Below are positions 18,247 through 19,572 of a stretch of 64,000 nucleotides of DNA, in pieces; position 1 is the stretch's first letter, and each line of letters opens with the position of its first letter. Source of the stretch: Phycisphaerales bacterium (lineage in GTDB: Bacteria > Planctomycetota > Phycisphaerae > Phycisphaerales > SM1A02). Under the pieces are notes generated by a model. That model saw only the letters and a program-made list of their open reading frames with translations. It searched no databases and had not been told where the DNA came from. Location of the stretch: the NCBI GenBank assembly GCA_009691915.1, contig SIAD01000011.1, forward strand, positions 1 through 64,000, given 5' to 3'. The position numbers and the translations under genes are program-made.

Positions 18247-18354
18247 TAAAGACATCGGCAGGAATGAGTTACGGGTATGTCCAACAGGTCAAGCGTTCTC
18301 GGACCACGAATTCATTCGTAGAAGTGGGGTGTGATTCTTGAATTTTGTCGACAT

Positions 18355-18385
18355 GTGTTGCATTGTGGGGCGTAGTGGGTATAGT
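18355..18385 (+). promoter_or_regulatory. mraZ promoter with MraZ-binding repeats
   Basis: GTGGG occurs at 18365-18369 and 18375-18379, exactly 10 bp apart, with a degenerate GTGTT one more turn upstream at 18355-18359 and a further GTGGG at 18324-18328. Tandem TGGG-type repeats with 5-base spacers are the known operator of MraZ. A -10 element TATAGT (18380-18385) follows the last repeat directly, with a weak -35 TTGCAT 16 bp upstream, so bound MraZ would cover the promoter spacer. Confidence 0.75.
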
Positions 18386-18411
18386 CACCGCGCCCCGAAT
18401 GTTCACTCACC

Positions 18412-18879
18412 ATGCTCTTCCTCGGCGAATACGAACACAGCATCGACTCGAAGCAGCGTCTCGCCATTCCGAGCGAACTGCGCGCAGTACTCGATGCCGC
18501 AACGATTGGAAGCGCGTTCGTCGCAGTGCCAGGCCCCGAGTCACTGCTCCTCTGGCCGGACAGGACCTTCGAACTTCTTGCCTCGCGCATGGGTGGATCG
18601 CTCGTCGGCGACGAGACGCTGCGAACATTCGAACGATCATTCTTCTCGCAGGCATCGAGCGCTCCGTTGGACTCGGCAGGGCGCATTCGCATTCCCGACC
18701 GTCTTCTCTCGAGATTCGGACTCGCGGGAAGCGTCATGATTCTCGGTGTTCGCGATCATCTGGAACTGGTCGGGGCAGCCGCATGGCAGGCGCAGCAGCA
18801 GGAACGGAACTCCGCTGCGAACGACCTGTGGCGGCGCGCCAACCAGATCCTCGACTCACGGTCTCCTGGGAACAGGTGA
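18412..18879 (+). CDS. mraZ: MraZ transcriptional regulator
   Basis: This 155-residue protein has two AbrB-like (SpoVT) half-barrels with the family DxxxR motifs: DSKQRLAIP at about residues 12-20 and DSAGRIRIP at about 86-94. MraZ forms a ring-shaped oligomer that binds direct TGGG repeats and represses its own promoter; in most bacteria it heads the division and cell-wall (dcw) cluster. Here no rsmH, ftsL, ftsI or mur gene follows; the next features are a structured RNA region and csrA. The autoregulatory repeats upstream are retained, so it is likely functional. The final 30 residues are a Gln/Asn/Arg-rich tail. Confidence 0.93.
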   Translation: MLFLGEYEHSIDSKQRLAIPSELRAVLDAATIGSAFVAVPGPESLLLWPDRTFELLASRMGGSLVGDETLRTFERSFFSQASSAPLDSAGRIRIPDRLLSRFGLAGSVMILGVRDHLELVGAAAWQAQQQERNSAANDLWRRANQILDSRSPGNR

Positions 18880-18975
18880 TGGATCGCCTCTCCCACGACC
18901 ACGCTTCTGCACGGACGCAGTAGCGACGAATCAACGCCTGCTCCGCGCACGGACGCGCGCGGCGGGCTCGACAAA

Positions 18976-19144
18976 CTCTCCTTTCGCAGGGATGCGCAAG
19001 GTGAGCAGGACAACGGGTCAGGGACGACCCGAAGGGAGCGCGCGGTTGGCCAAGGACGGCAACGCGACGCGCGAAGTCCGGTCAGGCGACTGCCGGATTA
19101 TCTGCCGTGCCCCCGCGTCACTGGCCCGACGCGGGGGCTTTTTT
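18976..19144 (+). ncRNA. candidate CsrA-sequestering RNA (CsrB/RsmZ-like)
   Basis: No gene is seen in this stretch, but it folds into consecutive hairpins. Hairpin 1 (18976-19005): ten pairs with two mismatches around loop AGGGAT (18988-18993). Hairpin 2 (19014-19031): perfect CGGGTC/GACCCG around loop AGGGAC. Hairpin 3 (19041-19066): CGCG, UU and GCC segments pairing with GGC-AA-CGCG, with two bulged Gs, around loop AAGGAC. Hairpin 4 (19077-19097): eight pairs with one bulge closed by a GCGA tetraloop. Two more GGA motifs lie in the linkers (CAGGACAA, AAGGGAGC). The terminator at 19109-19144 ends it. ANGGA in hexaloops is the known CsrA binding signature. No promoter is clear directly upstream, so it could be processed from the mraZ transcript. 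Confidence 0.6.
19109..19144 (+). terminator. strong intrinsic terminator between mraZ/RNA and csrA
   Basis: An 11-bp perfect stem (19109-19119 with 19128-19138, GCCCCCGCGTC and its complement) closes an 8-base loop and is followed directly by six T's (19139-19144). It is among the strongest intrinsic terminators possible and separates the upstream transcript from csrA. Confidence 0.95.
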
Positions 19145-19145
19145 G

Positions 19146-19341
19146 TGCCCAATAATGCCATTTTCTCCAATTTGTCAATCAGCCGATAGGCGCGATCCGA
19201 TCGAGCGATACCCTTTCAGTCGTTCGGGTTTCTTGCCGATGAAGTGCAGGCAAGGGTCGCAGGGAAGACGCACCGTGCGTCCGAGGCGAACCGGACAATC
19301 GGCTGGCGAAGATCCAGCCGTCTTTGGGATAGGAGGTCCGC
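19146..19341 (+). promoter_or_regulatory. structured csrA leader with GGA motifs
   Basis: The 196 bases before csrA hold three perfect 6-bp hairpins: CTTGCC/GGCAAG (19232-19254), GACGCA/TGCGTC with a 3-base loop (19267-19281) and GGCTGG/CCAGCC (19301-19319). GGA motifs lie in the linkers (AGGGA at 19261-19265, CGGAC at 19292-19296) and over the ribosome binding site (GGGA at 19326-19329 and AGGAGGT at 19331-19337). Known csrA leaders are repressed by CsrA at just such sites. No confident promoter hexamers are seen, although TTGTCA occurs at 19172-19177. Confidence 0.55.
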
Positions 19342-19572
19342 ATGCTCGTAATCACCAGGCGCGAAGGCGAAGAGGTCGTCATCGGCAACCCAGCGTCGCC
19401 GATCGGCATCGTTCGCATCGCGTCCATCAAGGGTGATCGCGTTCGGATCGCCTTCGAGTTCCCGCGCGAGATCCCCGTGCATCGCAAAGAGGTCGCCGCC
19501 CAGATTCTGGCTGGCGCGATCGATCCAGCCAAGCCAGTCATCGGTCAGATTCGCCCCGCGGCCGAAGGGTGA
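19342..19572 (+). CDS. csrA: carbon storage regulator CsrA
   Basis: This 76-residue RNA-binding protein starts MLVITRREGEEVVIG and contains VRIAFEFPREIPVHRKEV, with the Arg-containing REIPVHR segment that contacts RNA. CsrA dimers bind GGA motifs in hairpin loops near ribosome binding sites and change translation and mRNA stability. The ribosome binding site AGGAGGT is excellent and overlaps a potential CsrA site, consistent with autorepression. No flagellar gene (fliW, flgM or others) is adjacent. The structured RNA upstream (18976-19144) is a candidate antagonist. The tail after residue 60 is slightly longer than in gamma-proteobacterial CsrA. Confidence 0.95.
   Translation: MLVITRREGEEVVIGNPASPIGIVRIASIKGDRVRIAFEFPREIPVHRKEVAAQILAGAIDPAKPVIGQIRPAAEG

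Follow-up and report, generated by a model that had tools for sequence, protein, structure and literature searches.

Two mechanisms of CsrA antagonism have been described so far and have been called 'mutually exclusive mechanisms' (PMC7366521): Csr-family small RNAs are widespread in Gammaproteobacteria and the protein FliW is found elsewhere (PMC7652899, PMC7366521). Whether FliW and the small RNAs act together in any species is undetermined, according to a review (PMC7652899). The ligand preferred by CsrA is known from SELEX, with the consensus RUACARGGAUGU presented mostly in six-base loops closed by a C-G pair, and the NMR structures of RsmE contain an ANGGAN hexaloop (PMC7652899). In the open-licence literature searched (titles and the beginnings of abstracts) we found no CsrA-antagonist RNA of this kind in planctomycetes and no MraZ-CsrA link; as far as those papers go, this agrees with the first-pass annotation of the locus, which had held that such RNAs are described in gammaproteobacteria and not in planctomycetes. 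The locus compared here is an array of ANGGAN hairpins directly behind a planctomycete mraZ gene. It is likely to be a CsrB/RsmZ-like sponge for CsrA carried in the 3' region of the mraZ mRNA, with binding, co-transcription and sequestration all inferred.

In the window, by which we mean the whole 64-kb stretch of DNA that was analysed, mraZ (18412..18879, + strand; Pfam PF02381, 67.4 bits) is followed on the same strand by a csrA gene (19342..19572, +; PF02599, 54.2 bits), and the array lies on this common strand in the gap between both genes. From the mraZ stop (18874) onwards there are six ANGGAN-hexaloop hairpins without gaps in their stems, then a hairpin of the GNRA type and finally a terminator that reaches to 19144. 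Hairpin 1 (18874..18889, +) shows the loop AUGGAU from 18879 and overlaps the mraZ stop codon; hairpins 2 (18907..18920, +) and 3 (18944..18959, +) both carry ACGGAC, with loops from 18911 and 18949. Hairpin 4 (18985..18996, +), with AGGGAU at 18988-18993, is an extra one that also occurs in the related locus L003. Hairpins 5 (19014..19031, +) and 6 (19049..19060, +) show AGGGAC at 19020-19025 and AAGGAC at 19052-19057, respectively. They are followed by a GCGA-capped hairpin of the GNRA type (19075..19099, +; read from the sequence and its fold), which has no ANGGA site, and by an intrinsic terminator of 11 bp with six T's (19109..19144, +; terminator scan). Array and terminator are thus shown at the level of sequence; the proposed CsrA-sponge RNA, or mraZ 3' region, has 18874..19144 (+) as its minimum extent, and its 5' end is not defined. 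The first-pass annotation had reported hexaloop hairpins with AGGGAT, AGGGAC and AAGGAC between mraZ and csrA, on what prove to be gapless stems of 3, 6 and 3 pairs, together with the GNRA-capped hairpin and the 11-bp terminator with its six T's, and all of this held. Its count of three hairpins held only in part, three more ANGGAN hairpins lying upstream of 18976, and its RNA of about 170 nt beginning at 18976 failed, as the array extends back to the mraZ stop and is at least 271 nt long.

A partition-function fold of 18874-19144 gives a closing-pair probability of 0.99-1.0 for four of the six hairpins (1.0 for hairpin 2, 0.99 for hairpins 3 and 5), with weak folding of hairpin 1, at the mraZ stop (0.60), and of hairpin 6 (0.43). 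The 169 nt first singled out (18976-19144) fold more stably than their shuffles (z = -3.66). Six ANGGAN hairpins per 300 nt is the maximum of the window, where the next separate place has two. On both strands of the 1.61 Mb of the assembly that were scanned there are 712 such hairpins; the array is the sole cluster with four or more per 300 nt, and the runner-up places have three. In a ranking of the 256 xNyzwN-type loop motifs, ANGGAN comes out on top in 18861-19150, with six occurrences against one for the next motif. The density of plain GGA around the array is ordinary and was dropped as evidence; the signal therefore resides in the loop context of GGA. The hairpins are real, and the array is not a chance product of base composition.

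Searching with the DNA of the array region gives matches in 18 of the 19 genomes of the genus (the array's own included) and in none of 42 other relatives, and in all 18 matching loci the region is flanked by mraZ and csrA. The one genus genome that has no match, G017, has neither an mraZ nor a csrA match in its assembly; the same is true of G028, and G032 lacks an mraZ match, these assemblies being 72-83% complete. A second match within the array's own genome (L020), 48 nt long and located in what reads as a reverse-transcriptase frame, was set aside. The 18 mraZ-csrA gaps contain 3-6 hairpins each and 73 in total, as compared with five on the other strand and a shuffle mean of 2.5. The closing-pair probability is at least 0.5 in 56 of these 73 and lower in 17, and hairpin 1 folds poorly in many relatives. 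In four of the loops the A and the GGA are invariant in all 18 loci, while the N varies and is missing in one sequence; counterparts of hairpin 6 have either a five-base AGGAN loop or a six-base one.

The stems were compared in 16 of the 18 loci, the window and L003 being left out on account of their extra hairpin. Over the 59 pairs of these 16 sequences, 88.7% of cells are paired and 22 pairs show double changes, including 5 of 9 pairs in the counterpart of hairpin 2, 8 of 12 in that of hairpin 3 and 2 of 6 in that of hairpin 5. Double-change cells number 80, against a shuffled mean of 30.7 (none of 500 shuffles reaches 80) and at most 27 when the pairing partner is slid. 'Further pair types', one of five covariation measures, gave a less clear result and was reached in 31 of 500 shuffles. 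It should be kept in mind that the structure was drawn by hand from the same sequences and is thereby favoured over the slid controls; RNAalifold, unaided and given all 18 sequences, recovers the terminator, hairpins 1, 2 and 5 and an outer stem that encloses hairpin 3. Hairpin 1 keeps its loop A and GGA unchanged in 18 of 18 loci, and since its stem is constant across the 16 counted sequences there is no covariation evidence for it. Loop invariance and stem covariation are both shown by these counts, so that the comparative check suggested with the initial annotation, hexaloop conservation plus stem covariation in relatives, was passed.

A conserved short peptide could in principle account for part of this: a translated ORF running over the mraZ stop (ATGGATCGCC...) would explain why the beginning of the region is conserved, and its ATG does overlap the stop in 13 of the 18 genus loci. 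Against it, the ATG is gone in the other five, whereas no locus has lost the loop A or the GGA, and neither the length nor the frame of the ORF is conserved, which leaves this explanation next to no room. A longer coding frame was likewise rejected, since the loci differ in length by amounts not divisible by three and every frame is interrupted in at least one of the 18. By comparison the array is untranslated, without a conserved frame or length in the 18 loci.

The terminator was checked systematically for the genus only, and its core GCGTC.CTGGCCCGACGC (19115-19132) is present in all 18 loci with a single variable base, which is more conservation than a terminator needs. The terminator loop may serve some further function.

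Beyond the genus, hairpins were counted within 450 nt after the mraZ stop, with dinucleotide shuffles and the opposite strand as controls. Other genera of the family have 51 hairpins in 17 loci (shuffle mean 2.2, opposite strand 0), and every one of the 17 has at least two. The other families of the order have 42 in 20 loci (shuffle mean 2.7, opposite strand 1); ten of the 20 have two or more, and the remaining ten have fewer than two gapless hairpins, with none at all in two. In the rest of the class there are 30 in 23 loci (shuffle mean 3.2, opposite strand 0), eight loci having at least two and six having none. ANGGAN ranks first among the 256 loop motifs in each of the genus, family, order and class groups. 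In the phylum outside the class there are 2 hairpins in 16 loci, with 2 on the opposite strand and no locus having two or more; as a control for csrA without an array this sample is weak, only 4 of its 16 genomes being csrA-positive (G082, G085, G122 and G123, with 0, 1, 0 and 0 hairpins). For the order, mraZ regions were sampled from 20 of 23 genomes in which mraZ was matched (G055, G058 and G059 being omitted); G053 gave no such match. The wider loci come from two samples, one of 20 out of 114 matching genomes (4 from the class plus 16 from beyond it, each of the 16 from a different family) and one of 20 out of 94 (19 class members and 1 family member), the choice being made so as to spread over families. 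Related lineages recur in every group, so the counts are not independent. A separate collection of 80 loci, mostly from planctomycete or Phycisphaerales metagenome assemblies, contributed 54 new ones after removal of 3 without a detectable mraZ, 1 that was too short and 22 repeats ('new' meaning without an exact 200-base repeat): all 54 have at least one hairpin and 51 have at least two, with none on the other strand in any of the 54.

The first-pass annotation had anchored its interpretation in the csrA next door, and this anchor failed. A leader or attenuator of csrA, in which CsrA binding would gate read-through of the terminator into csrA, would fit the order mraZ - array - csrA on one strand seen in the genus and in some other genera. 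The csrA2 gene (the divergent paralogue discussed below) is, however, on the opposite strand in 37 of the 54 new loci, with 17 on the same strand, and in 12 of the 16 family loci outside the genus that have it near mraZ, with 4 on the mraZ strand; all 16 of these loci have at least two mraZ-strand hairpins behind mraZ. In the other families of the order csrA2 is far from mraZ, yet hairpins are enriched behind mraZ there too. As a general explanation the leader was rejected, the hairpins persisting behind mraZ when csrA is inverted or remote, and we regard it as virtually ruled out. What the array is attached to is mraZ, and that attachment and its strand specificity are shown. An additional cluster of four ANGGAN hairpins, three of them with near-identical CGUG stems, was seen in one genome (G042, L073:4824-5150, +) some 1.6 kb downstream of csrA2 rather than behind mraZ, and may be a second array.

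The link to CsrA rests on the hairpins themselves and on the protein. A C-G closing pair is found in 71, 88, 67 and 73% of the array hairpins in the genus, family, order and class, respectively (n = 73, 49, 42 and 30), compared with 27% of 680 background hairpins. The loop sequence and the base pair that closes it both match the known preference of CsrA, though binding itself is only inferred. The csrA at 19342..19572 is the single csrA match in the assembly and encodes a divergent paralogue, here called CsrA2, with a PF02599 domain above the cut-off that aligns with solved CsrA structures. T5, R6, V46, R48 and E50, which we take to be its RNA-contact residues, are invariant in 18 of 18 aligned sequences, and R7 is kept in 16 of 18. 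CsrA is thus indicated by the spread of the array in the family and order, by the C-G closing pair and by the neighbouring CsrA with conserved RNA-binding residues. The reading of the locus as a CsrA antagonist, as first proposed, is thus supported by sequence comparison, while transcript, CsrA binding and sequestration remain inferences.

It can be objected that the hairpins bind some other RNA-binding protein or reflect a coincidence of composition, as CsrA binding is inferred only and four class genomes with a clear csrA (G166, G173, G176 and G191) are among the six without a hairpin behind mraZ. Against this, loop and closing pair fit CsrA, the hairpins are strand-specific in five sets of loci, and the shuffles exclude chance. 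Of the 23 class genomes sampled, G180 is the one that lacks csrA and G148 the one whose csrA match is marginal, and neither has a hairpin behind mraZ; this agrees with a CsrA link, but weakly, because the four csrA-positive genomes are hairpin-free as well. We think either form of this objection very improbable.

CsrA2 itself carries a four-residue insertion (NPxxP/DPxxP) after the second strand and is found across much of the order beside canonical CsrA; to judge from its sequence alone it looks like a distinct kind of CsrA. The leader of the csrA gene in the window (19240-19341) has variants of GGA-bearing stretches that recur in relatives, e.g. GCANGGAGGACGCACGGTGCGTCC and GGGCAGGAGGTCCGC, which are possible candidates for CsrA autoregulation sites. 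Some genomes (G094, G110, G163, G077, G122, G134 and G154; family f26, planctomycetes outside the class) have 9-17 csrA-like matches each.

Among the 61 genomes searched, a canonical csrA (about 80-93 bits) occurs in most of those outside the genus, where fliW lies no more than about 1 kb away and flagellin usually just beyond it; the majority carry the divergent csrA2 (about 47-56 bits) too. In the genus, flagellin and FliW were found in none of 19 genomes and canonical csrA was not found; csrA2 and the array are kept. Three further genera (G019, G023 and G035) resemble it in being without flagellin, FliW and canonical CsrA while retaining csrA2 and the array. In four other genomes (G021, G022, G036 and G048) there is no flagellin match and FliW is retained. 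Because no canonical CsrA was found in the genus, CsrA2 is the only possible target there. Outside it the identity of the target is left undecided by family f5, which possesses a canonical csrA but lacks an ordinary csrA2 (two weak extra matches occur in G056) and nevertheless carries 0-4 hairpins behind mraZ.

The sequence before mraZ bears on how the array would be transcribed. MraZ-box-like direct repeats (GTGTTGCATT/GTGGGGCGTA/GTGGGTATAG) with a TATA-like -10 at their end occupy 18355..18385 (+); by resemblance we take them to be MraZ boxes with a -10, their function being inferred. The block GTGTTGCATTGTGGGG....GTGGGTATA before mraZ is near-invariant in all 18 genus loci, and GTGTTG or ATGTTG followed by two TGGG precedes mraZ in 24 of 36 other loci of the order (counted by eye). 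MraZ boxes could not be assessed in the class and phylum loci because the sample includes too little upstream DNA. In E. coli, MraZ is reported to repress its own cluster through MraZ boxes (PMC8475190). The simplest inference, in the absence of 5'-end data, is that the array forms the 3' end of the mraZ mRNA, perhaps after processing.

An independent small RNA, transcribed from a promoter of its own within mraZ or shortly behind it and in all other respects acting as the proposed sponge, remains a possibility. CsrB/RsmZ-type RNAs are separate genes, and in several genera about 50-240 nt separate the mraZ stop from the first hairpin. On the other side, the first hairpin overlaps the mraZ stop in the genus, the scan found no sigma70-like promoter in 18250-19380 (a stretch that includes the MraZ-box block), codon variety at the 3' end of mraZ shows no obvious constraint by eye, and the conserved promoter-like block is upstream of mraZ. 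The array might instead act only in cis, CsrA altering the stability or 3' processing of the mraZ mRNA through its 3' UTR without being titrated. This would agree with the array following mraZ on the same strand wherever csrA sits, and with its start at the mraZ stop in the genus. In our judgement, however, three to six tandem sites plus a terminator exceed the needs of a single cis-regulatory site; moreover, the mRNA examples given in one review are leaders (PMC7652899), and another paper names 5' untranslated and early coding regions (PMC5694010). We consider a purely cis-acting element unlikely, though a cis role and titration could coexist.

The sponge that we prefer would work as follows. 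A non-coding RNA extending from the mraZ stop codon to the terminator, with up to six CsrA-binding hairpins, would most probably be transcribed together with mraZ, forming the 3' end of its mRNA, from the conserved promoter with its MraZ boxes, and that 3' end might be trimmed to a stable RNA. The array would bind several CsrA dimers and so lower free CsrA, like CsrB/CsrC and RsmX/Y/Z, the predicted target in the genus being the CsrA2 encoded next door. A point against a sponge is its capacity, with up to six hairpin sites here versus 22 GGA sequences in CsrB. A bolder reading would have MraZ, whose control of the array is itself inferred, regulate its own mRNA, the 3' end of which titrates CsrA, so that an envelope regulator would set CsrA activity, in many species beside a canonical CsrA/FliW pair near flagellin; on present evidence we lean slightly against it. 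Were it correct, RNA and FliW antagonism would coexist in one cell, and RNA titration of CsrA would occur well outside Proteobacteria, wired to mraZ. In 23 of the planctomycete genomes sampled (13 from other genera of the family and 10 from the same order), FliW appears together with an array that has at least two hairpins, and one genus appears to have the RNA only.

How, then, does the array compare with known systems? At the gathering threshold Rfam identifies only a tRNA in the window, leaving CsrB, CsrC, RsmX, RsmY and RsmZ unmatched; with the threshold relaxed to E = 10, the region 18850-19400 gives three unrelated weak matches and no Csr/Rsm family, the two best aligning to the terminator. 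The small RNAs controlled by BarA-UvrY or GacS-GacA have an upstream GacA box, TGTAAG-N6-CTTACA; three weak matches to it in the 64 kb are the chance level, and none is near the locus. The array resembles CsrB/CsrC and RsmX/RsmY/RsmZ in presenting GGA repeatedly in hairpin loops and in ending with an intrinsic terminator, and it shares the ANGGAN loop and the C-G closing pair with CsrA/RsmE ligands; it differs from these gammaproteobacterial RNAs in belonging to another phylum and in being attached to the 3' end of mraZ, with no separate promoter found. With FliW it has in common that both would restrain CsrA and are present in the same order of bacteria, whereas FliW is a protein, is encoded near canonical csrA and has no match in the 19 genus genomes. 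UpsM of Rhodobacter is likewise a terminator-ended RNA made next to mraZ, but it is the mraZ 5' leader, is reported to be cleaved in an RNase E- and Hfq-dependent manner, and has no link to CsrA in the abstract (PMC5089854). The ncRNAs of the E. coli dcw operon provide a precedent for a stable RNA released from an mraZ-containing transcript; in contrast to the array they come from within coding sequence, and it is Hfq/ProQ binding that is discussed for them, with CsrA as background only (PMC6156199). No homologue of the Rfam families, and with binding and sequestration inferred, the array is by its anatomy sponge-like, in a new phylum and at a new position.
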